The translations under genes and the position numbers were made by a program. DNA of 64,000 nt from Candidatus Poribacteria bacterium (GTDB taxonomy: Bacteria; Abyssobacteria; SURF-5). The stretch spans positions 1-64,000 of the forward strand of contig JACRIR010000207.1 in NCBI GenBank assembly GCA_016215705.1, in the 5' to 3' direction. The notes under the pieces were generated by a model that searched no databases, was not told the DNA's origin, and saw only the letters and a program-made list of their open reading frames with translations. The stretch's first letter is position 1, and every line of letters begins with the position of its first letter. Of this stretch, positions 2,655 through 17,235 are shown piece after piece.

Positions 2655-2678
2655 TCGCGTGTTTCGCAGGAGTATTTG

Positions 2679-3230
2679 ATGCAAGCCAAGGAGATAGCGC
2701 AGAGCCAACTCGACTCGAAATTGCTTGAGGAAATAGAGAACAAGACGCACACGAAAGTGTCGGCTTGTTTCCAGTGTCTGAAATGTTCGAGCGGATGTCC
2801 TCTCGCTTACGAGATGGACTATCTCCCGGCACAGATCATTCGCATGGTCAATATGGGGCTTCGCGACGAAGTCCTTCGAAGTCGGACGATTTGGGTGTGC
2901 GCGTCGTGCGAAACATGCACGACGCGCTGCCCGAACGATATTGATATCGCGCACGTGATGGATGCGTTGCGCGAGACCGCGCTGCGCTCGGGTAAGGCCG
3001 AAACCGAGGAGAATCTCAGGCATTTCCATGAGGCATTCCTCTCTGCGATCAAGACATGGGGGCGTGTTCATGAGCTCCAGATGATAGGAATGTACAAGCT
3101 CAAGACGGGCCGGTTCATGGAGGATGCAGACATAGGCAAGGAGATGTTCAAGCGCGGCAAGATAAAGCTTCTTCCGGAAACGACCAGAGGGAGAAGAGCG
3201 GTCAAGAGGATATTTAAGAAGACCTCATAA
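2679..3230 (+). CDS. hdrC: HdrC-like heterodisulfide reductase subunit
   Basis: A 183-residue iron-sulfur electron-transfer subunit with two [4Fe-4S] motifs: CFQCLKCSSGCP near residue 30 and CASCETCTTRCP near residue 72. This spacing is typical of HdrC. Together with HdrB and HdrA downstream it should form a soluble HdrABC module that moves electrons to or from ferredoxin. I chose the ATG over the adjacent upstream TTG because it gives better spacing from the GCAGGAG Shine-Dalgarno. No membrane segment is visible. A 40-bp palindrome separates it from fhs. Confidence 0.92.
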   Translation: MQAKEIAQSQLDSKLLEEIENKTHTKVSACFQCLKCSSGCPLAYEMDYLPAQIIRMVNMGLRDEVLRSRTIWVCASCETCTTRCPNDIDIAHVMDALRETALRSGKAETEENLRHFHEAFLSAIKTWGRVHELQMIGMYKLKTGRFMEDADIGKEMFKRGKIKLLPETTRGRRAVKRIFKKTS

Positions 3231-3424
3231 GAACGGTTTGGGGGTTTGAGGGTTTGGGGGTTTGACAGTTTGAGGAGATCGCTTCGCTCCGCAATAACAA
3301 GAAGAGCAATGCAAAAGGAAGTGTTTTTCCTCCGGGGTCTTCAAAATTCAGATTTGGGGTTCGGTGTGCAGACGAGGGATCCAAATGTGAATTTTGAAGG
3401 CCTGATCCCGGAGAGAGGTAACTC
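3231..3424. repeat. Intergenic G/T-rich heptad repeat and SINE-like fragment
   Basis: Between hdrC and hdrB. Positions 3237-3276 are runs of GGTTTGG / GGGTTTGA, the reverse orientation of the AACC heptamer family seen elsewhere. GATCGCTTCGCTCCGCAATAAC follows, a relative of the GAGCGAAG element. No gene is seen. Confidence 0.6.
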
Positions 3425-4297
3425 ATGAAAGTAGCATACTATCCTGGTTGTTCACTTCACGGAACCGCAGAAGAATACGATGAATCCACTCAGATGGTTT
3501 GCGAAGCGCTCGGCATCGAACTGAAGGAACTCGACGATTGGAGTTGCTGCGGCGCGACATCGGCGCATTGCACGAACGACAAGCTCTCGGTCGCACTCGC
3601 CGCACGCAATCTCGCGCTGGCGGAGAAAGGCCAACACAAGACCCTTACCGTCCCGTGCTCGGCTTGTTTTCAGCGGCTGAAAGCGGCCGATTATAGGATG
3701 CGGGAAGACAAGCAACTCGCAGGCGAGATAGTCTCTCTCATCGAGATGCCTTATGCCGGAAACATCGAGGTGCTGCAGATCATCCAGATTCTTGCGCAAC
3801 CTGAAATTGTCGAAAAGATCCGCGTGAGTGTCAAAAAGCCGCTGAAAGACCTCAAGAGCGTCTGTTATTACGGTTGTCTGACGGTGCGCCCGCCCAAGGT
3901 GACGAAGGTCGGCGATTACGAAGACCCAATGTATATGGACGTTCTCATGGAGACCGTCGGCGCTGACAACAGGTTCTGGTCGTACAAGACCGAATGTTGC
4001 AGCGGCGGCCTTGCAATGGCGCGCTCGGATATCACCAAGCGTCTCAGCGGCGTATTACTCACGATGGCCGATGAGGCCGACGCCGAATGCGTGGTTGTGA
4101 GTTGTCCGATGTGTCACGCGAACCTGGACACGCGTCAGAACGCCTTGCTGGCGGAGGGGAAGATTCCCCGGAAAATGCCGATTCTTTACGTAACGGAGCT
4201 TCTGGCTTTGGCAATGGGTATAAAGGAAGTCGGGGCTTTGTGGTCCAAACATCTGGTGGACCCGCGGCCCCTTCTCTCGTCGAAGGGGCTCGCTTAG
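3425..4297 (+). CDS. hdrB: HdrB-like heterodisulfide reductase subunit (CCG protein)
   Basis: A 290-residue protein with two cysteine-rich CCG domains. The first is YYPGCSLHG at residues 5-13 with SCCGATSAH near 40. The second has CYYGC near 140, ECCSGG near 188 and CPMCH near 222. In HdrB this type of cysteine set holds noncubane [4Fe-4S] clusters at the disulfide or thiol active site. The start has GAGAGAGGT upstream. It lies between HdrC and HdrA, so a HdrABC complex is the natural assignment. Here it is probably tied to MetVF rather than to CoM-S-S-CoB, which is inference. Confidence 0.92.
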   Translation: MKVAYYPGCSLHGTAEEYDESTQMVCEALGIELKELDDWSCCGATSAHCTNDKLSVALAARNLALAEKGQHKTLTVPCSACFQRLKAADYRMREDKQLAGEIVSLIEMPYAGNIEVLQIIQILAQPEIVEKIRVSVKKPLKDLKSVCYYGCLTVRPPKVTKVGDYEDPMYMDVLMETVGADNRFWSYKTECCSGGLAMARSDITKRLSGVLLTMADEADAECVVVSCPMCHANLDTRQNALLAEGKIPRKMPILYVTELLALAMGIKEVGALWSKHLVDPRPLLSSKGLA

Positions 4298-4301
4298 GAC
4301 G

Positions 4302-4352
4302 CTTATTCGGGGATCCCGCCTCAGGCGGGACCGCATCGTGTCCCCGAATAAG
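4302..4352. repeat. Composite GGGGACAC palindrome (family A variant)
   Basis: Outer arms CTTATTCGGGGA and TCCCCGAATAAG flank an inner hairpin CCCGCC/GGCGGG plus a half copy of the usual centre. The same composite design recurs at 25708-25757. It sits between hdrB and hdrA. Confidence 0.75.
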
Positions 4353-4399
4353 CTGGGTTTTTCGATTATTATGTTTCTTCAGTCTTGGAGTGAAATAAG

Positions 4400-7300
4400 A
4401 TGAGTAGCAAAGGGAATGCCGGTAATGGCGATGTTGGCGTCAGCCGCAAGGTCGGCGCCGTGATGGTGGTTGGCGGAGGCATCGGCGCAATGCAGGCGTC
4501 GCTGGATCTTGCAAACGCCGGATTCAAGGTTTACCTGGTTGAAAGAACGCCTTCTATCGGCGGGAGGATGGCGCAACTCGACAAGACGTTCCCGACGAAC
4601 GACTGCTCGATGTGCACCATCTCGCCGAAACTTGTCGAGTGTGGCAAGCACCTCAACATCGACCTCATTACCTATTCCGAAGTGCAATCGATCGAGGGGA
4701 CGGCCGGCAATTTCACCGCCAAGGTCTTGTGCAAGGCCAAATCGGTTGACTACAGCAAATGCACAGGCTGCGGGCTCTGCCAGGAAAAGTGCCCCACAAA
4801 GGTCGACAGCGAGTTCGAGGCCGGCATCGGCAAGCGCAAAGCCATCTATGTCCCGTATCCCCAGGCTGTGCCGAACAAGCCGGTGATTGACCGCGAACAC
4901 TGCATGAAGTTCACCAAGAACAAGTGCGGCGTTTGCCAGAAGAAGTGCCCGACCGGCGCTATCAATTACGAAGATCAGGACAAAATTATCGAGTTGAAAG
5001 TGGGCGCCATTATCCTTGCCCCCGGCTACGATCCCGTCGACCCGAAGCTCAGGCCGGAGTACGGCTTTGGCCGTTACAAGAACGTTGTCACGAGCCTTCA
5101 GTATGAGCGCCTCTTAAGCGCTTCCGGACCGACACAGGGACACATTCAGCGGCCTTCCGATCAAAAGGCGCCTCATAAGATAGCGTGGATACAATGCGTC
5201 GGCTCGCGCGATGCCCAATGCGGAAACGAATATTGTTCATCCGTCTGCTGCATGTACGCGACCAAAGAGGCGATTATGACCGCCGAACACGAGAAGGGTG
5301 TTGCGTGCTCGATTTTCTTCAATGATATTCGGGCATTCGGGAAAGGGTTTGAACGTTATTATATCGGCGCCGAGAAGGACAGCGGCGTCAAGTACATACG
5401 CGGCATCGTCTCGACTGTCAGAGAGATGCAGCGCACCAAGAATCTGCTGGCCAGGTACGTCTCGGACGACGGCGAAATAAAAGAGGAAGAGTTTCAGCTT
5501 GTCATCCTGTCGGTCGGTCTCAGACCGTCAAAGGGATCAAAAGAACTCGCCGAGTTGGCCGGCATAAAGCTCGACAGCCACGGCTATGCGCTTACATCCA
5601 CGTTCCGCCCGAACGAGACCACGCGCGCCGGAGTGTTCGCTCTCGGCGCGTTTCTTGCCCCGATGGATATCCCGGAGACCGTGATGACCGCGAGCAGCGC
5701 GGCTGCTGCTGCGGCTGAACTGGTTTCCGAGGAGCGCGGCTCGCTTGTCGCTCAGAAAGAATACCCCTCGGAGCGCGATATTATGGGCCAAAAGCCGAGG
5801 GTGGGCGTATTCGTGTGCCGCTGCGGCACGAATATCGCGCGAGTCGTGGACGTGCAGAAAGTGGTCGAATACGCCAAGACGCTGCCGCACGTCGAGTTTG
5901 CCACCGAATCACTTTTCACCTGTTCGACGGACTCACAGAAAACCATCAGCAAAGCCATCGAGGAGCACAACCTCAATCGCGTAATTGTGGCGGCGTGCAC
6001 GCCTGCCACTCACGAGCCGCTCTTCCAGGATACGCTCAAAGAAGCCGGCTTGAACAAGTTTCTGTTCGAGATGGCGAACATTCGCAATCAATGTTCATGG
6101 GTCCACGAAGACCCTGTGATGGCTACCGAAAAATCGAAGGACCTCGTCCGGATGGCGGTTGCGCGTGCCCTTAAACTCGAGCCCATCAAACAGTTGCAGT
6201 CGCCCGTGACCGCGAAGGCGCTCGTGATAGGCGGGGGATTGTCCGGCATGACTGCCGCCCTCTCACTCGCTCGCCAGGGATTCGAGTCGTATCTCGTGGA
6301 GAGGAGCCCGAAACTGGGCGGCTACCTGAACCGTCTCCAGTACACGCTCGAAGGCGATAACACACAGGAATGGCTCAAGAAACTTGTGGGCGAGGTGGAA
6401 AAAGAGAAACGCATCAAGGTCTTCACTGACGCTGAAGTCACCGAGTTCTCCGGCCACGTCGGCAATTTCCACGCTGCCGTCAAGACGGCCAACAAGACCG
6501 AGAAAGTGGACGCTGGCGCAGTAATTGTCGCCACCGGCGCTCAGGAATATCAACCCACCGAATACCTGTATGGCAAAAGCCCGAACGTGCTCACGCAGCT
6601 CGAGCTCGAGGAAAAAATTGCCAAGGAGCCCGAAGCGCTCCGCAATGCGAATACGGTCGTGATGATACAGTGCGTGGGCTCGCGCGACGATGAGCACATG
6701 TACTGCAGCCGCGTATGCTGCGGTCAGGCGGTCAAGAATGCGCTACGACTCAAGGAACTGAATCCGGCGGCGAAGATATTCGTGCTTCATCGAGACATAC
6801 GCACGTATGCGTCAAAAGAACTTGCATACAAGAAGGCGCGTGAGAAAGGCGTGCTCTTCCTGAGATATAATCCGGAGCACAAGCCGGAGGTCGCGCAGAC
6901 CAACGGCAAACTGAGCGTGAGGGCTCAGGACGTGAGCATCGGCGCAATCATCGACATCAAGCCCGATATCGTCGTTCTGAGCGCCGGCATAAAGCCCCAC
7001 GAGACCAACCCCACGCTGGGATCGTTGCTGAAAGTGCCGCTCGACAGAGACGGCTTCTACCTCGAAGCGCACCTGAAGTTGAGGCCGCTTGATTTCTCGA
7101 GCGAGGGTATCTTCCTCTGTGGCCTGGCGCACTCGCCGAAATACATCGAAGAGAGCGTCGCGCAGGCGCGAGGAGCAGCTTCGCGCGCCGCCAGTCTCTT
7201 GTCGAAAGATTTCCTCACGGTGGGCGGCGTCATATCGGTCGTCAACCCCGAAAAATGCGTCGCATGTCTCACGTGCGTTCGCGTGTGCCCGTATGGCGTG

Positions 7301-7468
7301 CCTGCGTTCAAGGATGAAGAGGGCGCAGTGTACATCGAGCCGGCCTCATGCCAGGGGTGCGGCATCTGCGCCGGGGCGTGCCCGAACAAGGCGATCGAGG
7401 TGCAGCATTACAAGGACCGTCAGGTTGTCGCAAAGTGCAAGGTTTTATGCGAAGTCTCGAAGACCTGA
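4400..7468 (+). CDS. hdrA: Double-length HdrA-like flavoprotein/polyferredoxin
   Basis: A 1022-residue fusion of two HdrA-like units. Unit 1 has a dinucleotide-binding GGGIGAMQASLDLA near residue 17, the HdrA-type cysteine segment CSMCTISPKLVECG near 68 and [4Fe-4S] motifs CTGCGLCQEKCP and CGVCQKKCP. Unit 2 starts near residue 470 with VGVFVCRCGTN, has GGGLSGMTAALSLA near 615, and ends in two ferredoxin motifs, CVACLTCVRVCP and CQGCGICAGACP. HdrA carries the bifurcating FAD in characterised HdrABC-MvhAGD systems. Whether both halves carry FAD here needs a structural model. It is followed by the MvhD-like gene. The start is the ATG after GGAGTGAAATAAG, a moderate Shine-Dalgarno. Confidence 0.93.
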   Translation: MSSKGNAGNGDVGVSRKVGAVMVVGGGIGAMQASLDLANAGFKVYLVERTPSIGGRMAQLDKTFPTNDCSMCTISPKLVECGKHLNIDLITYSEVQSIEGTAGNFTAKVLCKAKSVDYSKCTGCGLCQEKCPTKVDSEFEAGIGKRKAIYVPYPQAVPNKPVIDREHCMKFTKNKCGVCQKKCPTGAINYEDQDKIIELKVGAIILAPGYDPVDPKLRPEYGFGRYKNVVTSLQYERLLSASGPTQGHIQRPSDQKAPHKIAWIQCVGSRDAQCGNEYCSSVCCMYATKEAIMTAEHEKGVACSIFFNDIRAFGKGFERYYIGAEKDSGVKYIRGIVSTVREMQRTKNLLARYVSDDGEIKEEEFQLVILSVGLRPSKGSKELAELAGIKLDSHGYALTSTFRPNETTRAGVFALGAFLAPMDIPETVMTASSAAAAAAELVSEERGSLVAQKEYPSERDIMGQKPRVGVFVCRCGTNIARVVDVQKVVEYAKTLPHVEFATESLFTCSTDSQKTISKAIEEHNLNRVIVAACTPATHEPLFQDTLKEAGLNKFLFEMANIRNQCSWVHEDPVMATEKSKDLVRMAVARALKLEPIKQLQSPVTAKALVIGGGLSGMTAALSLARQGFESYLVERSPKLGGYLNRLQYTLEGDNTQEWLKKLVGEVEKEKRIKVFTDAEVTEFSGHVGNFHAAVKTANKTEKVDAGAVIVATGAQEYQPTEYLYGKSPNVLTQLELEEKIAKEPEALRNANTVVMIQCVGSRDDEHMYCSRVCCGQAVKNALRLKELNPAAKIFVLHRDIRTYASKELAYKKAREKGVLFLRYNPEHKPEVAQTNGKLSVRAQDVSIGAIIDIKPDIVVLSAGIKPHETNPTLGSLLKVPLDRDGFYLEAHLKLRPLDFSSEGIFLCGLAHSPKYIEESVAQARGAASRAASLLSKDFLTVGGVISVVNPEKCVACLTCVRVCPYGVPAFKDEEGAVYIEPASCQGCGICAGACPNKAIEVQHYKDRQVVAKCKVLCEVSKT

Positions 7469-7636
7469 AAAAGGCGAAAGGTTTTCCCTTTACAACCAAC
7501 TGCGCTGCGGACGCGGTCGGAAGCTCAGAATGACGGGTGGCGCGTTGGTTTTGGATGCTTTGATAATCGGATCATGACCCCGACGTGACATAAGAAAAGC
7601 GGTGTTAGGCCGTGCAGATGATGGAGGAGAGAGAAT

Positions 7637-8158
7637 TTGGAAGGGCTGGGTTTTGCGCCAAAAATCGTTGCTTTCTGCTGCCAGTATTGCGCGTACAACG
7701 CAGCGGACCTGGCCGGCTCCATGAGACTGCAATACTCGCCCTACGTGCGCATCATAAGGCTTTTGTGCACGGGCAAGATTGACAGTCTTTATATCCTCAA
7801 GGCATTCGAGGAAGGGGCCGACGCAGTATTCGTCGCCGGGTGACTGGAAGGTCAATGCCATTTCCTGGAAGGAAATCTAAGAGCAAAGAGAAGGGTTGAG
7901 TACACCAAGAAGCTTCTTGCGGAAGTCGGCATCGAGCCCGAGCGGCTCGAGATGTTCAACATGTCGGCCTCAATGGGACCGAAGTTTGCCGAGACAGCCG
8001 ACGAGATGACCGAGCGGGTGCGAAAACTTGGTCCTAGTCCGCTCAAAGGGATTCGACAACCGGAGAGGGCCGCAGGCCCGAGTGTCGCAGATACGGGCGC
8101 AGCCGCAAGTGTTACTACCACGGGCGTCAGCGACAAAGGTGAGGGAGAAACCAAATGA
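7637..8158 (+). CDS. mvhD: MvhD/HdrD-delta-type subunit, probable selenoprotein (TGA at 7841 = Sec)
   Basis: Reading through an in-frame TGA at 7841-7843 gives 173 residues that match the MvhD [2Fe-2S] subunit end to end. FCCQYCAYNAADLAG lies near residue 13, RIIRLLCTGK near 40, then VFVAG-U-LEGQCHF with Sec at 69 where the family normally has Cys, then the conserved MFNMSASMGPKFAE. MvhD passes electrons between a hydrogenase or reductase partner and HdrA. The start is TTG with GGAGG 9 bases upstream; no better ATG exists. A stem-loop 17 bases after the TGA fits a bacterial SECIS. The stop overlaps folD (ATGA). The last 35 or so residues are low-complexity and include the repeat-derived palindrome GGGCCGCAGGCCC. 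The alternative is a nonsense mutation in a TGC/TGT codon. Confidence 0.88.
7860..7876 (+). promoter_or_regulatory. Candidate bacterial SECIS hairpin of mvhD
   Basis: A perfect 6-bp stem, ATTTCC paired with GGAAAT, closes a TGGAA loop. The loop starts 22 nt after the TGA at 7841-7843, and G is the second loop base. This agrees with known bacterial SECIS rules (short apical loop with an early G, about 16-37 nt from the UGA). Confidence 0.7.
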
Positions 8159-9045
8159 CAGCGAAGATCATCAGTGGCAACAAAATAGCTGAAGAGATGC
8201 GCGCCGAGATGAAGATTGAAATCGAGCAATTGAAGTCAAAGCACAACCTCGTTCCCGGTCTGGCAGTCGTTCTTGTCGGCGAAAACCCCGCATCCGTGGT
8301 GTATGTGCGCAACAAGAAGAAATCCTGCGAAGAAATCGGCATCAACTCGTACGAACACAAACTTCCGGCGGACACTTCTGAAGAGAAGCTGCTCGCCCTC
8401 GTTGACAAGCTCAATGCCGACGACAGCGTTCACGGAATCCTTGTTCAACTGCCGCTCCCCAAGCAGATAGATGAAAACAAAGTCTTGAATAAGATAATTC
8501 CGACGAAAGATGTCGACGGTTTTCACCCGTTCAACGTGGGCCGCATGCTTGTCGGCGACCCCATCTTTCTTCCGTGCACGCCGCACGGAGTCCAGCAGAT
8601 GTTGATTCGCAGCGGAGTCAAGGTTGAAGGCAGCCACGTTGTTATCGTAGGGCGCAGCAACATCGTCGGCAAACCCGTTGCGGCCATTCTCGTGCAGAAG
8701 GCGAAGGGCGCGGACGCGACCGTCACTATTTGTCACTCGCGCACGAAGAATCTGCCTGCGGTAACGCAGCTTGGCGATATCCTCATAGCGGCCATCGGGG
8801 TGCCGGAGTTCGTCAAGGCCGACATGGTCAGGGAGGGCGCGGTCGTCATTGACGTCGGCGTCAACCGTGTCGAAGACAAGACGAATCCGAAGGGATTCAA
8901 GCTCGTCGGCGACGTCGATTTCGAGGCTGTGAAAGCAAAGGCGAGTGCTATTTCGCCGGTTCCGGGCGGCGTGGGGCCCATGACCATTACGATGCTGCTC
9001 CACAACACGATTCGGGCCGCAAAGCTCAAGCACAACATAGCCTGA
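8155..9045 (+). CDS. folD: Bifunctional methylene-THF dehydrogenase/methenyl-THF cyclohydrolase
   Basis: Interconverts 10-formyl-, methenyl- and methylene-THF, the middle steps of the methyl branch. The 296 residues are the normal FolD size. The catalytic region VVYVRNKKKSCEEIG near residue 43 contains the expected Tyr and Lys. LVQLPLPKQI near 98 and GRSNIVGKPVA near 172 (the dinucleotide site) are family signatures, and PVPGGVGPMTITMLL closes the protein. The ATG overlaps the stop of the MvhD-like gene, which indicates translational coupling. Confidence 0.97.
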   Translation: MTAKIISGNKIAEEMRAEMKIEIEQLKSKHNLVPGLAVVLVGENPASVVYVRNKKKSCEEIGINSYEHKLPADTSEEKLLALVDKLNADDSVHGILVQLPLPKQIDENKVLNKIIPTKDVDGFHPFNVGRMLVGDPIFLPCTPHGVQQMLIRSGVKVEGSHVVIVGRSNIVGKPVAAILVQKAKGADATVTICHSRTKNLPAVTQLGDILIAAIGVPEFVKADMVREGAVVIDVGVNRVEDKTNPKGFKLVGDVDFEAVKAKASAISPVPGGVGPMTITMLLHNTIRAAKLKHNIA

Positions 9046-9122
9046 AGTGTTGCGAGTATTACAGTTTTGAGCCGGTTTTCCTGGTAAAATAAAAGCTGGT
9101 GCTTTATGGAGGCTAGACGTCA

Positions 9123-9791
9123 GTGATAGTAGGCGAAAGAAAACCTTTGAGCGAAATCCAAGAGATGCTCAAGGGATACAAAAAGGTCATGGTGCTCGGG
9201 TGCCGCACTTGCGTCGCTGTTTGCATGGCAGGCGGTGATAAGGAAGTGGAACTTCTCGGTTCACTTCTGCGAATCGCCGCCACGAAAGACGGCAGCCGAC
9301 TCGAAGTCGTCGAGGATGCGGTCGAGCGACAGTGCGACAGGGAATATATCGAACCGATAAGGGAAAAAGTCGCGGCATGCGACGCGGTTCTCTCGATGGC
9401 GTGCGGCTGCGGCGTGCAGTTCATGGCCGAGCTGTATGCGGACAAACCGGTGCTCCCGGCCATTAACACGAATTTCATCGGGGTGACCGAAAGCACGGGT
9501 GTATGGACGGAACGATGCGGCCAGTGCGGCAATTGTGTGCTCCACTTGACCGGCGGCATCTGCCCGATAGCGCGCTGCTCGAAGTCGCTCCTGAACGGCC
9601 CATGCGGCGGCTCGCAGAACGGAAAGTGCGAAATCAGTCCCGACGTGGATTGCGGATGGCAGCTTATATACAACCGTATGAAACAGTTGGGACAATTGGA
9701 AAAACTCGCAGAGGTGATCCCCGCCAAGGACTGGACCACCAGCCGCGACGGAGGCCCTCGAAAAATAGTCAGGGAGGACGTGAAGATATGA
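9123..9791 (+). CDS. metV: MetV, zinc-finger/Fe-S partner of methylene-THF reductase
   Basis: 222 residues of the methylene-THF reductase C-terminal (MetV) family. The N-terminal part has LGCRTCVAVCMAGGDKE near residue 25 and SMACGCGVQ near 91. The C-terminal part is a cysteine cluster, CGQCGNC, CPIARC, GPCGG and CEISPDVDCGW, expected to hold Zn or [4Fe-4S]. In acetogens MetV forms a complex with MetF. The start is GTG with GGAGG 10 bases upstream. The stop overlaps the ATG of metF by four bases (ATGA), strongly suggesting a stoichiometric pair. Confidence 0.93.
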   Translation: MIVGERKPLSEIQEMLKGYKKVMVLGCRTCVAVCMAGGDKEVELLGSLLRIAATKDGSRLEVVEDAVERQCDREYIEPIREKVAACDAVLSMACGCGVQFMAELYADKPVLPAINTNFIGVTESTGVWTERCGQCGNCVLHLTGGICPIARCSKSLLNGPCGGSQNGKCEISPDVDCGWQLIYNRMKQLGQLEKLAEVIPAKDWTTSRDGGPRKIVREDVKI

Positions 9792-10720
9792 AGGCGGGCA
9801 GCAATCTCGAGCGAATTCTGACCGAAGGCAAGTTCGCCGTGACGGCCGAACTCGGCCCGCCTAAAAGCGCCGACGCCGAAGTCATCCGGAAAAAGGCCGA
9901 CTTGCTGAAGGGTAAAGTTGACGCCGTAAACATAACCGACAACCAGACAGCGATTGTGCGCATGTCGAGCATCGGCGCCGCAAAGCTGGCGCTCGACAAA
10001 GGCATTGAGCCGATCATGCAGATGGTCTGCCGCGATCGCAACCGCATTGCGATGCAGAGCGACATCCTGGGCGCGTACGCGCTCGGCATTCGCAACATGC
10101 TCTGTCTCACCGGCGACCACCAGAAGTTCGGCAATCATCCGACGGCGAAGAATGTTTTCGACCTGGATTCGATGCAACTCCTCGACATGGTGAAGCGAAT
10201 GCGGGATAACAAGACATTTATGTGCGGCGACGAAATACGCAACTCGAAGAAGGCGCCGGTCGTCGAGCCGAAGCTGTTCATCGGGGCTGCCGAGAACCCG
10301 TTTGCGCACCCATACGAGTTTCGCGCGATCAGGCTGGCGAAAAAAGTGAAGGCGGGCGCCGATTTCATCCAGACACAGTGCATATTCGACCTTCCCAGGT
10401 TCAAGGAGTGGATGAAAGAAGTCGTCGACATGGGACTCCATGAGAAAGTGTTTATCCTCGCGGGCCTGATGCCGATCAAATCGCCAAAGACACTCGAGTA
10501 CATGAAGAAAAACGTGGCGGGGATGTCAATTCCCGATGCCCTAGTCGAAAGGATGAAGGGTGCAAGCGACCCGAAGGAAGAAGGCGTGAAATTCGTGGTC
10601 GAGTTGATACAGGAAGTGAAACAGATAGAGGGAATTCGTGGTGTTCACATCATGGCAGTCGAATGGGAGGAAGTCGTTCCCACGATTGTCGAGCGCGCCG
10701 GGCTTCTTCCCAGGCCGTGA
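9788..10720 (+). CDS. metF: Methylenetetrahydrofolate reductase
   Basis: Reduces methylene-THF to methyl-THF, the methyl donor for the corrinoid protein. It is a 310-residue TIM-barrel flavoprotein of the MetF family with the early catalytic Glu context VTAELGPPKSAD near residue 18, NITDNQTAIVRMSS near 51, CLTGDHQKFG near 106 and GADFIQTQCIFD near 195. It is coupled to metV. With HdrABC and MvhD upstream this resembles the MetVF-HdrABC-MvhD set described in Moorella thermoacetica, where MetF may take part in electron bifurcation. Confidence 0.96.
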   Translation: MKAGSNLERILTEGKFAVTAELGPPKSADAEVIRKKADLLKGKVDAVNITDNQTAIVRMSSIGAAKLALDKGIEPIMQMVCRDRNRIAMQSDILGAYALGIRNMLCLTGDHQKFGNHPTAKNVFDLDSMQLLDMVKRMRDNKTFMCGDEIRNSKKAPVVEPKLFIGAAENPFAHPYEFRAIRLAKKVKAGADFIQTQCIFDLPRFKEWMKEVVDMGLHEKVFILAGLMPIKSPKTLEYMKKNVAGMSIPDALVERMKGASDPKEEGVKFVVELIQEVKQIEGIRGVHIMAVEWEEVVPTIVERAGLLPRP

Positions 10721-10870: not shown

Positions 10871-12829
10871 ATGAAAGAAAAGTCGATAGACAAAGCAACT
10901 CTGCAAATGATGGAGAAGGCGAAGTGCGACAATGTCTGCACCGCATTCGACCGCGCCGCGCAGCAGGAGCCCAGATGCGGCTTCGGCGAACTTGGCGTCT
11001 GCTGCCAACAGTGCTACATGGGACCCTGCCGCGTTGATCCGTTGGGCAAGGGCGCCCAGTATGGCGCATGCGGCATTGACGCCGACGGCATCGTCGCGCG
11101 AAACATCGCGCGCAACACGGCCATAGGCGCGTCGGCCCACTCTGACCATGGCCGCGACGTCGCCCACAACCTTTACATGACCTCGCAGGGAAAAGCGCAG
11201 GGTTACGAAATAAAGGACCCGGTCAAGCTCATGTATGTGGCCGAGGAACTCAGTGTCGATACCTCGAGCGGCGACGTGAAGAAGATTGCCGCCGAAGTGG
11301 CGCATAAGTGCATGGCCGAGTTCGGCAAACAGGAAGGCGAGCTCATCATGGCTCAGCGCGCCCCTGAGAAGCAGAAGGAGCGCTGGCGCAAGCTGAAGGT
11401 CATGCCCCGAGGGGTTGACCGTGAAATCGTCGAAGTCCTCCACATGGTGCACATGGGCATGGACGCCGACTACCGCAACTTATTGATGTTCGCCATCAAG
11501 GCCGGCCTGAGCGACGGTTGGGGCGGCTCGATGATAGCGACCGATTTGACCGATATCCAATTCGGCAGCCCGAATCCGCTTCGCTCGAAGGCAAACCTTG
11601 GCGTGCTCGGCGAAAATACAGTCAATATACTGGTGCACGGCCACGAGCCCACGCTTTCCGAAATGATCGTGAAAGTGGCGCGCACTCCAGAGATGAAGGC
11701 GCTTGCGAAGAAGAAGGGCGCAGAGGACATCACGGTGGCGGGCATCTGCTGCACCGCAAACGAAATCCTCATGAGGCAGGGCGCGCCGCTCGCCGGCAAC
11801 TACCTCATGCAGGAACTCGCGATAGTCACGGGCGCCGTCGAGTCAATGGTCGTCGACGTGCAGTGCATCATGCCCGGTATCACTCAGGTGGCGCCCTGCT
11901 ACCACACGAAGATCATCACCACGAGCAAGAAGGCTCGCATACCGGGCGCTGTCCATTACCAATTCGAGGAAGAGAGAGCGGTCGACATAGCCAGGCAGAT
12001 AGTGACCGAGTCGATCGAGAACTATTCCAACCGCAAACGCGACCGTGTTCAGATTCCGAAAGAGTCGAGCGACCTGATCGCCGGGTTTACGACCGAGAAC
12101 GTGTTCTACCATCTGGGCGGCAAATTCCGGCCTTCTTTCAAACCTTTGAATGAGGGTATGATTCAGGGCCGTCTGCGTGGTGTCGTCGGCGTCGTTGGCT
12201 GCAACAACACAAAGGTCGTCCATGACTATAACCATGTGAATTTCGTGAAGGAGCTCCTCAAGCACGACGTGCTGGTTGTCACGACCGGCTGTTCAGCCGG
12301 CTGTCTCGCGAAGCATGGATTCCTGGACCCGGAGGGCGGTCTCCAGTATTGTGGAAACGGCCTGAAGGAAATCTGCGTTGCAGTGGGCATTCCGCCGGTT
12401 CTGCACCTCGGCTCATGCGTGGACAACTCGCGCATACTCACGGCGTGCATCGAAATGGTGAAAGAAGGCGGTATCGGAACCGACTTGAGCCAACTGCCGG
12501 TTGCCGGTTCTGCGCCCGAGGCGATGAGTTCAAAGGCGACCTCTATTGCATTGTACGTCGCCGCGTCCGGCATCGCGGTCCATTTCTATCCGCCTTTCCA
12601 GGTACATGGCAGCAAGAAAGTGACGGAATATCTGACCAGCGAAATGGAGAAAGACTTCGGAGCGTATTTCATATTCGAAGGCGACCCGAAGAAGGCGGCC
12701 CAGAAGATCATCGCTCACCTCGACAAGAAACGCGAGGCGCTGAAACTCAAGCCGATGATGTATCCGCCCCTTAACGGAGAAACCGACAAGAAAGCCGCTG
12801 AGAAACAGGCCGCGGTATCAAAGAGCTGA
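10871..12829 (+). CDS. acsA: Ni-Fe-S carbon monoxide dehydrogenase catalytic subunit
   Basis: A 652-residue CODH of the CooS/AcsA family that interconverts CO2 and CO at the Ni-Fe-S C-cluster. The N-terminal cysteines RCGFGELGVCCQQCYMGPC near residue 36 fit the D- and B-cluster ligands. HSDHGRDVAHN near 94 carries conserved histidines. The C-cluster cysteines are spread through GICCTANEIL, DVQCIMPG, VGVVGCNNTK, TTGCSAGCLAK and LGSCVDNSR. The start has AAGGAGAG upstream. It sits before AcsB, as expected for a bifunctional CODH/ACS. I saw no CooC-like maturation ATPase nearby. Confidence 0.96.
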   Translation: MKEKSIDKATLQMMEKAKCDNVCTAFDRAAQQEPRCGFGELGVCCQQCYMGPCRVDPLGKGAQYGACGIDADGIVARNIARNTAIGASAHSDHGRDVAHNLYMTSQGKAQGYEIKDPVKLMYVAEELSVDTSSGDVKKIAAEVAHKCMAEFGKQEGELIMAQRAPEKQKERWRKLKVMPRGVDREIVEVLHMVHMGMDADYRNLLMFAIKAGLSDGWGGSMIATDLTDIQFGSPNPLRSKANLGVLGENTVNILVHGHEPTLSEMIVKVARTPEMKALAKKKGAEDITVAGICCTANEILMRQGAPLAGNYLMQELAIVTGAVESMVVDVQCIMPGITQVAPCYHTKIITTSKKARIPGAVHYQFEEERAVDIARQIVTESIENYSNRKRDRVQIPKESSDLIAGFTTENVFYHLGGKFRPSFKPLNEGMIQGRLRGVVGVVGCNNTKVVHDYNHVNFVKELLKHDVLVVTTGCSAGCLAKHGFLDPEGGLQYCGNGLKEICVAVGIPPVLHLGSCVDNSRILTACIEMVKEGGIGTDLSQLPVAGSAPEAMSSKATSIALYVAASGIAVHFYPPFQVHGSKKVTEYLTSEMEKDFGAYFIFEGDPKKAAQKIIAHLDKKREALKLKPMMYPPLNGETDKKAAEKQAAVSKS

Positions 12830-13626: not shown

Positions 13627-15804
13627 ATGTCAAAAATCGTAGCTTCGGCGGCCATTCGCGGCGCGCACTCCTGGGCGGAAGAGGCGGAGGCCGCTCTCAA
13701 GCAAGCCATAGAGTCAAAAGGCGAGAGCCAGAAGCTTGAGTTTCCGGAAACCGCTTTTTTCCTTCCCATGGCGTATTCGCTCCTGGGAATGGAAGTGAAA
13801 GACCTCGCAGGCGCGAAAAAGATAATGGCCCGCGTGCGCTCTCTTCTGCCGCCGGTCCCCAGTGAGAAAGTGTGGCTTCCCTACCTCGGGCCGACGCTTG
13901 ACGCGGGCATTGCCACGTTGCTTTCGACCGAAATGATAACGGCGCTCAGGTATCTGCGTGGCGAGCTTCCGGCGCAAGGCGACCAGGGATTTATATCGGA
14001 TACGATCCTCCGTTCGCTCGGCATCCAGTTGGTGGACGGCAGAATGCCCGGCTTTGCGGCCATTCTCGGGTCCGCCCCCACAAACGAGATAGCAGTAAAG
14101 GTCGTTCGCGAATTGCAGCAGCGGAACATTCTCGTGTTCCTCTGCGATAACAACGACGGCAAAACGATGCGCCAGCAACTCGAGCAAGAGAAGGTCGAAC
14201 TTGGCTGGGACACTTACATCGTTCCTCTCGGGTCCGATCTGGTGTCCGGCATCTATGCGCTTAACTGGGCAATGCGCGGCGCGCTCACGTTCGGTGGCCA
14301 TAAACGCGGCGAATTCGTGAAATGCCTCGAGTACCAGCGTGACCGCGTGTTCGCGTTCGGTCTCGTGTTCGGCGAAGTCACCGACCGGCGCTATGCCGTC
14401 GGCGCAGGCGCAATCAATATGGGCTTCTGCGTCATTGCCGACACCGATATACCGGAGATACGCCCGACGGGCGTGACATTGTTCGAGGCGCTCGTGCGCG
14501 AGCGGAACTATGACAAGATCGTCCCGACTTGCATTCAGACTCGTGGAGTCAAGGTCAAGGTCGAGAAAGTGCCAATACCCGTGAACTATGCGGCGGCGTT
14601 CGAGGGCGAGCGCGTTCGCAAAGAACAGCTTGCGGTCGAGTTTGGCGGCAAGGCTTCGGTGGCCTTCGAGTGGCTCCGCATGAAGTCTCTCGATCAGGTT
14701 GAGGACGGCAAAATCACCGTCGTCGGCCCCGATGTCGATACGGTTCCGGACGGAAAGTCGCTCCCCATTGCGATCATCGTGGACGTCGCCGGCCGAAAAA
14801 TGCAGCGCGACTTCGAGCCCATTCTCGAGCGCCAGATTCACCACCTGATCAATGGCGCGATGGGTGTCATGCACGTCGGCCAGCGCGATATCGTATGGAT
14901 TCGCATGAGCAAAGACGCCAAAGCCAAGGGGTTCAAGGCAAGACACTTCGGTGATATCCTCCATGTGAAGCTGCTTCAAAACTTCCCGTCCATCGCTGAT
15001 AAAGTGCAAGTAACCATATACACGAAGAAAGAAGACGTTGAAAAGCTTCTCGCCGAAGCGAAGAAGAGCTACGCGGAACGCGACGCGCGCGTGGCGGGTA
15101 TGACCGACGAGAGCGTAGACACGTTCTACTCCTGCACTCTGTGCCAGTCATTTGCCCCGAGTCACGTTTGCATGATCAGCCCGGAACGACTCGGTCTTTG
15201 CGGCGCATATAACTGGCTCGACGGCAAGGCCGCGTTCGAAATCAATCCCACCGGCCCGAACCAGCCCGTCGTCAAGGGAGAGACGATTGACCCGGTGAAA
15301 GGTCAATGGGACAACGTCAATAAATTCGTATATCAGAAGTCCAGCAAGAAGATCGAGAAGTTCAACGCTTACTCGCTGATGGAAAGCCCGATGACGTCCT
15401 GCGGCTGCTTCGAGTGCATCGTCGCGATCGTGCCCGAAGCGAACGGCGTGATGATCGTCAACCGTGAATACAACGGGATGACCCCAAGCGGTATGACCTT
15501 CTCCACGCTCGCCAGCACGACGGGCGGCGGTTTGCAGACCCCGGGATTCCTCGGAGTCGGCAAGCTTTATGTTACCAGCAGGAAGTTCATATCGGCGGAC
15601 GGCGGTCTGGCCCGTGTTGTCTGGATGCCGAAAGACCTGAAGGAAACGGTGCGCGAACGTCTCGAAGCGCGCGCCAAGGAAGTCGGGCTCGACGATTTCT
15701 TGAATAAGATCGCCGACGAGACAGTCTGCGACAACGCAGGCGATCTGCTTCCGTTCCTTGAGAAGGTCGGCCATCCGGCGCTTACGATGCCGCCGATGTT
15801 CTAA
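13627..15804 (+). CDS. acsB: Acetyl-CoA synthase (CODH/ACS beta subunit)
   Basis: Joins CO, the corrinoid-bound methyl group and CoA to acetyl-CoA at the Ni-Ni-[4Fe-4S] A-cluster. The 725 residues match bacterial AcsB, which has an extra N-terminal domain that contacts CODH. The A-cluster region is near residues 500-600: YSCTLCQSFAPSHVCMISPE, LGLCGAYNW and TSCGCFEC, containing the conserved cysteines and the Cys-Gly-Cys that binds the distal Ni. GGAGGT precedes the ATG. It is followed by a 13-bp stem hairpin and acsC. Confidence 0.97.
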   Translation: MSKIVASAAIRGAHSWAEEAEAALKQAIESKGESQKLEFPETAFFLPMAYSLLGMEVKDLAGAKKIMARVRSLLPPVPSEKVWLPYLGPTLDAGIATLLSTEMITALRYLRGELPAQGDQGFISDTILRSLGIQLVDGRMPGFAAILGSAPTNEIAVKVVRELQQRNILVFLCDNNDGKTMRQQLEQEKVELGWDTYIVPLGSDLVSGIYALNWAMRGALTFGGHKRGEFVKCLEYQRDRVFAFGLVFGEVTDRRYAVGAGAINMGFCVIADTDIPEIRPTGVTLFEALVRERNYDKIVPTCIQTRGVKVKVEKVPIPVNYAAAFEGERVRKEQLAVEFGGKASVAFEWLRMKSLDQVEDGKITVVGPDVDTVPDGKSLPIAIIVDVAGRKMQRDFEPILERQIHHLINGAMGVMHVGQRDIVWIRMSKDAKAKGFKARHFGDILHVKLLQNFPSIADKVQVTIYTKKEDVEKLLAEAKKSYAERDARVAGMTDESVDTFYSCTLCQSFAPSHVCMISPERLGLCGAYNWLDGKAAFEINPTGPNQPVVKGETIDPVKGQWDNVNKFVYQKSSKKIEKFNAYSLMESPMTSCGCFECIVAIVPEANGVMIVNREYNGMTPSGMTFSTLASTTGGGLQTPGFLGVGKLYVTSRKFISADGGLARVVWMPKDLKETVRERLEARAKEVGLDDFLNKIADETVCDNAGDLLPFLEKVGHPALTMPPMF

Positions 15805-15837: not shown

Positions 15838-15870
15838 GGCAGACCACAAGAGAAGCGCTTGTGGTCTGCC
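15838..15870 (+). other. Strong hairpin between acsB and acsC
   Basis: A perfect 13-bp inverted repeat, GGCAGACCACAAG and CTTGTGGTCTGCC, with a 7-base AGAAGCG loop, 22 bp before the acsC start. There is no T-tract, so mRNA processing or partial attenuation is more likely than full termination. It does not belong to the dispersed palindrome families. Confidence 0.75.
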
Positions 15871-15891
15871 TCACATCAAAGGAGAGGTTAC

Positions 15892-17235
15892 ATGGCGCTA
15901 ACAGGTCTGGACATTTATAAATTACTGCCGAAAACCAACTGCGGCGAATGCAAGTCGCCAACGTGCCTTGCATTTGCGATGCGGGTGGCTCAGAAACAGG
16001 CCTCCATCGATCAGTGCCCACATGTGAGCGCCGAGTCTAAGGAAAAACTCGGCGCAGCGTCGGCGCCGCCGATACAGTTGGTAACAATCGGAGCAGGCGA
16101 CTTCAAAATCGCGATCGGCAACGAGACCGTGTTGTTCAGGCATGAAGAAACGTTCCATCATCCGGCCGGCATCGCAGTGACTGTTTCCGACAAGCTGTCG
16201 GAGGCTGAGATCGGCGCGCGCGCAGACAAGATCGTACATCTTATATTCGAGCGCGTCGGCATGAAGATTGCCGTCGATATGGCCTGCATCATGAACGACT
16301 CGGGCGATCCGGCTAAGTTCGCCGCCGCCGTGAAGATAGTCGCCCAAAAGGCCCCCGTTGCGCTCATATTGGCAAGCGACAATCCCGATTCTCTGAAAGC
16401 TGCGCTCGAGGTGTGCGCCGACAGGCGTCCGCTCCTCTGCGGCGCGAATGCGAGCAACTATCAGGCGGTGGCAGCATTGGCAAAAGAGAAGAATTGCCCC
16501 GTCGTTGCAAGGGCCAAGGGGCTGGAAGCGCTTACAGACTTGACGCAGAAGATAACAGCGGCAGGAGTAAAAGAGATAGTGCTGGAATCAGGCGCCGAAG
16601 GCGTCCGGCAGACGCTCGAAGACCTGACGAAAGCACGCCGCTACGCTCTGAGAAAGAGTTTCCGGCCGCTCGGCTATCCCATGCTGACGTGCATGATGGG
16701 CGACGGCGATTCGTTCCTTCCGGTTCTCAAGGCCGCCGCTTACATCGCGAAGTATGCGGGCATCGTGGTGACTGACGCCATCGAGCCCTGGCAGCTCATG
16801 CCGCTTCTTACGGTGAGACAGAATATCTACACCGACCCGAGAAAGCCGCTGCAAGTCGAGCCCGGAGTTCACAAGATAGGCGAGCCCGGCTCGAAAGCGC
16901 CTCTGCTGATCACGACCAATTTCTCGCTCACGTACTACACCGTCGAGGGAGAAGTCGAAGGCTCGAAGGTGGCTTCCAATATCCTGGTGGTCGACACCGA
17001 GGGCACGTCCGTCCTGACTGCCTGGGCCGCCGAAAAGTTTACGACCGACCAGATCGCGGCTGCGATGAACAAATATGAGGTCGAAGCAGTGGCCTCTCAC
17101 AAGAAAGTCATCATTCCCGGTCTGATCGCGGTCGAGAGCGGCAAGCTGCAAGAAGAGTCCGGCTGGGAAGTTATCGTCGGTCCGAAGGAAGCGTCCGGAA
17201 TCCCGTCATATCTCAAAGCCAACTGGGGCGGCTGA
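15892..17235 (+). CDS. acsC: Corrinoid iron-sulfur protein large subunit
   Basis: Gamma subunit of the corrinoid Fe-S protein, which carries the methyl group from methyl-THF to ACS. 447 residues. The N-terminal [4Fe-4S] domain has LPKTNCGECKSPTCLAFA from residue 11 and QCPH near 42. A TIM-barrel middle part follows, then a C-terminal corrinoid-binding region with NILVVDTEGTSVLTAWAAEK. The start is the ATG after AAAGGAGAGG; an upstream in-frame ATG lies inside the hairpin and was rejected. The next gene (activator) starts only 4 bp after the stop. Confidence 0.95.
   Translation: MALTGLDIYKLLPKTNCGECKSPTCLAFAMRVAQKQASIDQCPHVSAESKEKLGAASAPPIQLVTIGAGDFKIAIGNETVLFRHEETFHHPAGIAVTVSDKLSEAEIGARADKIVHLIFERVGMKIAVDMACIMNDSGDPAKFAAAVKIVAQKAPVALILASDNPDSLKAALEVCADRRPLLCGANASNYQAVAALAKEKNCPVVARAKGLEALTDLTQKITAAGVKEIVLESGAEGVRQTLEDLTKARRYALRKSFRPLGYPMLTCMMGDGDSFLPVLKAAAYIAKYAGIVVTDAIEPWQLMPLLTVRQNIYTDPRKPLQVEPGVHKIGEPGSKAPLLITTNFSLTYYTVEGEVEGSKVASNILVVDTEGTSVLTAWAAEKFTTDQIAAAMNKYEVEAVASHKKVIIPGLIAVESGKLQEESGWEVIVGPKEASGIPSYLKANWGG

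Follow-up and report, generated by a model that had tools for sequence, protein, structure and literature searches.

Selenocysteine (Sec) is well documented in bacterial members of the FrhD/MvhD family. In 2006, 19 bacterial cases of Sec-containing FrhD/MvhD were listed, including those of the acetogen Moorella, Carboxydothermus, and Syntrophobacter (Zhang 2006, PMC1794560). Desulfobacterium autotrophicum carries Sec in mvhD1, 2, 3, and 5 (PMC2702500), Desulfococcus multivorans has a Sec-containing FrhD/MvhD (PMC5109826), and the bacterial proteins are covered in reviews too. As to function, the [2Fe-2S] cluster of MvhD passes electrons to the HdrA flavin in the methanogen complex (PMC6019823), and pull-downs in Sporomusa revealed that MvhD contacts HdrA, HdrB, and MetF (PMC9430772). 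A complete Wood-Ljungdahl pathway has been reported for the deep-subsurface lineage Abyssobacteria SURF_17 (PMC6121073).

Here we analyzed a stretch of 64,000 nucleotides (the window) from a host genome of 5.47 Mb that is 92% complete; the genomes compared were metagenome-assembled. The window contains an mvhD gene at 7637-8158, which is very probably read through an internal UGA at 7841 as Sec to yield a product linking the HdrA flavin to MetVF in the Wood-Ljungdahl pathway. Another genome of the family, that of Candidatus Abyssobacteria SURF_17, carries the same locus (contig QZKI01000095.1). The features of the locus are as follows.

859-2574, + strand: formate-THF ligase (NF010030, above cut-off)
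2676-3230, + strand: hdrC (NCBIfam TIGR03290 CoB_CoM_SS_C, E 6e-21, below curated cut-off)
3425-4297, + strand: hdrB (TIGR03288 CoB_CoM_SS_B, E 2e-46, below curated cut-off)
4400-7468, + strand: hdrA, 1022 aa, two pyridine-nucleotide-disulphide oxidoreductase modules and Fer4 domains, without in-frame UGA
7623-7629, + strand: Shine-Dalgarno-like GGAGGAG, 7 nt upstream of the mvhD TTG (by sequence inspection)
7637-8158, + strand: mvhD (FlpD family), predicted selenoprotein of 173 residues, TTG start, terminal stop TGA 8156-8158 (translation, PF02662)
7841-7843, + strand: predicted Sec codon UGA (Sec69), at the invariant first Cys of G-C-x4-C
7860-7876, + strand: bSECIS hairpin, stem 7860-7866/7870-7876, loop GGA 7867-7869 (conservation, compensatory changes, identical-peptide control)
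8155-9045, + strand: folD, methylene-THF dehydrogenase/cyclohydrolase (ORF, identified from sequence), ATG overlapping the mvhD stop
9123-9791, + strand: metV (PF12225, E 4e-39)
9788-10720, + strand: metF, methylene-THF reductase (PF02219 MTHFR, E 3e-45)
10871-12829, + strand: CO dehydrogenase catalytic subunit (TIGR01702, above cut-off)
13627-15804, + strand: acetyl-CoA synthase, CODH/ACS alpha-beta (NF040764, above cut-off)
15859-17235, + strand: CODH/ACS gamma subunit, corrinoid protein large subunit (NF003195, above cut-off)

The hdrCBA, mvhD, metV, and metF genes are grouped at 2676-10720, in an order that recurs at another sampled locus (L058), and judged by sequence they make up the gene set of an HdrABC-MvhD-MetVF type methylene-THF reductase. 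A preliminary description of this DNA had placed mvhD next to MetVF and CODH/ACS in an HdrABC cluster; the cluster is indeed there, but folD separates mvhD from metV. A folD gene also lies beside mvhD in L058 and in the family's two further sampled genomes (L029 and L030), and it stands between mvhD and metV in the other Abyssubacteria genomes and in L064, L066, and L074 (Armatimonadetes, Poribacteria). In the window, hdrA is of the long type, with two flavoprotein modules, and lacks a Sec codon, although many relatives with a Sec-MvhD also carry Sec in HdrA.

The mvhD frame 7637-8158 holds exactly one internal TGA (7841-7843, residue 69), and GAGGAGA is likewise found upstream of the orthologues in L029 and L030. 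In the read-through protein, residue 69 is flanked as FVAG-Sec-LEGQCHFLEGNLR. A profile search with PF02662 (FlpD) matched this protein over profile positions 1 to 123 of 123 (E 2e-50), and in the family alignment residue 69 falls on the first Cys of G-C-x4-C-H, with homologues aligning without a gap. Among 26 diverse homologues, with Sec counted as Cys, positions C15, C18, C44, 69 (Sec), and C74 are invariant. MvhD/VhuD chains in the PDB match the protein with E values of 1e-38 to 3e-41 and the solved MvhD chains are 45-50% identical to it, while the AlphaFold2 prediction for it (mean pLDDT 83, core >90) overlays 5odc_D and 7bkb_F with Z 24 and 1.2 A. The full-length profile match, the fold, and the invariant cysteines all agree with membership of the MvhD/FlpD family. 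These results bear out two earlier claims, that the in-frame TGA replaces the Cys of the GC-x4-C motif and that the family sequence continues ungapped on either side. Against NF045873, the model of the methanogen F420-non-reducing hydrogenase VhuD, the protein scored 174 bits, under the curated cut-off of 215, and by this measure it would be classed as a relative of VhuD and not VhuD proper.

Could the TGA be a true stop, with a nonsense mutation or a sequencing or assembly error having left mvhD truncated or a pseudogene? Most homologues do have Cys here (97 of 112 distinct sequences), as this explanation would expect. However, TGA occupies the same mvhD codon, with the same flanking genes, in both other sampled family genomes, so that it recurs across three genera of this family and across genomes that were assembled independently; the same TGA is also found in the MetVF-linked mvhD of several other lineages. 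Comparison of the three family genomes gave a dN of 0.035-0.063 both before and after the TGA, at a dS of about 1 or more, and the low dN on both sides means that the downstream part of mvhD is under equal protein-level constraint. Sister genomes with TGC and a decaying gene had been named as the pattern that would speak against Sec; both sister genomes carry TGA, and no decay is seen downstream. In addition, the hairpin goes together with the TGA among homologues, and the genome encodes the Sec machinery. We therefore regard a true stop as highly improbable.

The hairpin begins 17 nt 3' of the TGA and can be drawn with 7 bp and a GGA loop or with 6 bp and a UGGAA loop. The preliminary description was correct in its position and G-containing loop, but its stem of 6 bp is better called 7 bp. 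The published bSECIS model (PMC13188914) calls for a loop of 3-9 nt with G in the first two positions and a stem of 4-16 bp, at 16-37 nt from the UGA; the window hairpin fits it in either form, with the GGA loop at 23 nt or the UGGAA loop at 22 nt. Over the whole window and both strands, a 7-bp Watson-Crick stem at exactly the mvhD spacing was found for 1 of 2159 TGAs, and such a stem anywhere in the permitted range for 0.7% of them. Among homologues, the perfect 7-pair stem with its 3-nt loop 23 nt past the UGA was present in 15/15 distinct TGA sequences versus 3/97 Cys sequences (Fisher 5e-16, 112 distinct sequences, relatedness uncorrected); because the TGA sequences are related and not independent, such p values overstate the independent evidence. 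The 15 comprise the window mvhD, those of L029 and L030, and 12 more, drawn from family, delta-proteobacterial, and other genomes and including the distant paralogue L048.

It might be argued that the hairpin is a by-product of conserved codons without any role, in which case Sec insertion would need something else. The amino acids HFLEGN are conserved, and the single-sequence folding energy at the window hairpin is unremarkable (z -0.22), both of which fit that argument. Nevertheless, among genes encoding the identical HFLEGN peptide, the hairpin occurs in 12/12 Sec genes and 0/7 Cys genes (p 2e-5). The stem is thus not imposed by the protein, because the seven Cys genes with the same peptide disrupt it through synonymous codons and never form it. 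Moreover, stem columns 23-33 hold UA or AU and columns 26-30 hold UA, AU, or UG, which is compensatory, and the covariation score is 0.154 against 0.034 for shuffles. Where Phe changes to Tyr (TTC to TAC), the Gly codon shifts synonymously from GGA to GGT, which restores the base pair. At this position and equal spacing the distant L048 builds another stem, ATTACCA-GTC-TGGTAAT in place of ATTTCCT-GGA-AGGAAAT. With these data, a role-free hairpin has very little left to recommend it.

Synonymous shuffling gave p 0.025 for the window sequence and 0.005-0.055 per TGA sequence. Sec and Cys genes were not distinguished by their mean 50-nt MFE z-scores, only by the positioned hairpin. The case therefore rests on conservation across lineages, because the window fold taken by itself is ordinary. 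A scan of 7600-8200 against Rfam returned no match to a SECIS family; bSECIS elements vary widely. L048 (genome G059) is a separate mvhD paralogue; its Sec occupies the site used in the window gene, and its stem is unrelated in sequence. A Cys form (TGC) from Lentisphaerota, L095, keeps a full 7-pair stem with one G-U (ATTACCT-TGA-GGGTAAT), which may be what is left of a SECIS after a change from Sec to Cys.

Searching the host genome with family models, we found all of selA, selB, selC, and selD, which answers the check proposed earlier. The selA (580 bits) and selB (371 bits) genes, both over cut-off, are neighbors on contig C228. The selD gene (391 bits; G000:C134:6943-7869) has its own in-frame TGA in the expected GGUACK motif, so SelD itself is probably a selenoprotein. 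The tRNA-Sec, with anticodon tca, lies on contig C59; a second tRNA-Sec match on C42 was rejected as tRNA-Leu(taa). The host genome has four more FlpD-family copies or fusions (C5, C112, C52), none with an in-frame TGA inside the PF02662 match, and Sec is confined to the metVF-linked copy. In a scan of the window for other TGA-interrupted ORFs, the long candidates (e.g., 44762) proved to be normal gene ends followed by the next start, and we claim no second selenoprotein gene there.

These findings also bear on whether UGA encodes some other amino acid, either by a genome-wide change (e.g., to Trp or Gly) or as Cys through tRNA-Cys(UCA) variants. Cys is the usual residue at site 69, which would suit the latter. 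Yet UGA is not globally reassigned, because TGA terminates both mvhD (8156) and hdrA (7466); the decoding tRNA present is tRNA-Sec(tca), whereas the tRNA-Cys seen has gca, and the recoding is linked to a local hairpin. We consider such a reading extremely unlikely. The Sec proposed at this TGA is supported by the sel genes, the conserved hairpin, the ungapped alignment, and the intact downstream part. On sequence grounds mvhD would be a bona fide selenoprotein gene of the bacterial type, its bSECIS a textbook one, and we infer that Sec is inserted at UGA 7841; insertion by SelB appears to be the sole reading compatible with all observations.

In the mechanism we propose, SelA and SelD would make Sec-tRNA(Sec), and SelB would bind the hairpin 17-33 nt 3' of UGA 7841 and bring the charged tRNA, while the second UGA (8156), without such a hairpin, would end translation. 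This would yield MvhD, a small electron carrier with a [2Fe-2S] cluster, in which Se takes one of the five invariant family cysteine positions. Because position 69 is invariant, Sec69 is most likely a ligand of the [2Fe-2S] cluster or located beside it. MvhD would then transfer electrons between the HdrA flavin and MetVF, and the HdrCBA-MvhD-MetVF assembly would reduce methylene-THF, or oxidize methyl-THF, in the Wood-Ljungdahl pathway. The path and direction of electrons through this MvhD, and its place between HdrA and MetVF, are suggested by analogy with the methanogen complex and Sporomusa. In Sporomusa, MvhD did not copurify with MetVF (PMC9430772), which we count against this reading.

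When 117 MvhD sequences were placed in a tree, 94 rows fell into a single well supported clade, which is largely metVF-linked, as judged from the neighborhoods inspected. Sec is scattered over the tree, requiring at least five changes, two of them forced by strongly supported branches; the alignment has 134 columns only and many forks are unresolved. The selB gene was found in 7/7 sampled genomes with a Sec-mvhD versus 5/11 with a Cys-mvhD, and one family contains both forms (G285, Sec with selB; G148, Cys without selB). The metVF-linked mvhD of Dethiosulfatarculus sandiegensis (L105:6001-6399, NZ_AZAC01000038.1) has its single TGA at CxxU and not at G-C-x4-C, with a 7-bp hairpin 20 nt past the UGA (cggacct-GGC-aggttcg). 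No relative was found among viral contigs. We tentatively suggest, at a little short of an even chance, that several gains or losses of Sec took place across bacterial phyla in the metVF-linked clade, at two alternative cluster-site cysteines each with its own SECIS, selenium thus tuning the electron carrier. In the open-licence literature we found no description of repeated Sec/Cys exchange or of two alternative Sec sites in this clade. If the suggestion is true, selenium tunes the carrier of the least understood Wood-Ljungdahl step. The natural Sec/Cys pairs in close relatives, together with the two sites, offer a way to test what selenium does at the [2Fe-2S] site.

The preliminary description implied that methanogen VhuD was the only precedent for this locus, which was overstated given the many bacterial Sec-containing FrhD/MvhD reported since 2006, and the advance is modest because Sec was already known in bacterial members of the family. 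Those bacterial proteins (PMC1794560, PMC2702500, PMC5109826) share with ours the family, the in-frame UGA, the Sec machinery, the SECIS, and the hdrA neighborhood; however, their copies are linked to hydrogenase, formate dehydrogenase, or Hdr, or their linkage is unstated, whereas the window copy lies in an hdrCBA-mvhD-folD-metVF-CODH/ACS cluster and comes from an uncultured lineage. Methanogen VhuD (PDB 9sfi_K) belongs to the same fold family and, where its G-U-x4-C aligns, carries a non-standard residue that we read as Sec, but it has a second such residue at CxxU, where the window protein has Cys, and the archaeal SECIS and decoding are unlike the bacterial ones. The MvhD of HdrABC-MvhAGD (PDB 5odc_D) has the same fold (Z 24.1, 1.2 A over 138 residues, 48% identity), with Cys at this residue and a [NiFe] hydrogenase as partner, while the neighbor of the window MvhD is MetVF. 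Finally, known HdrABC-MvhD-MetVF clusters agree with the window in gene set and neighborhood, and differ in that the window has folD between mvhD and metV and in the HdrA arrangement, which varies among organisms.
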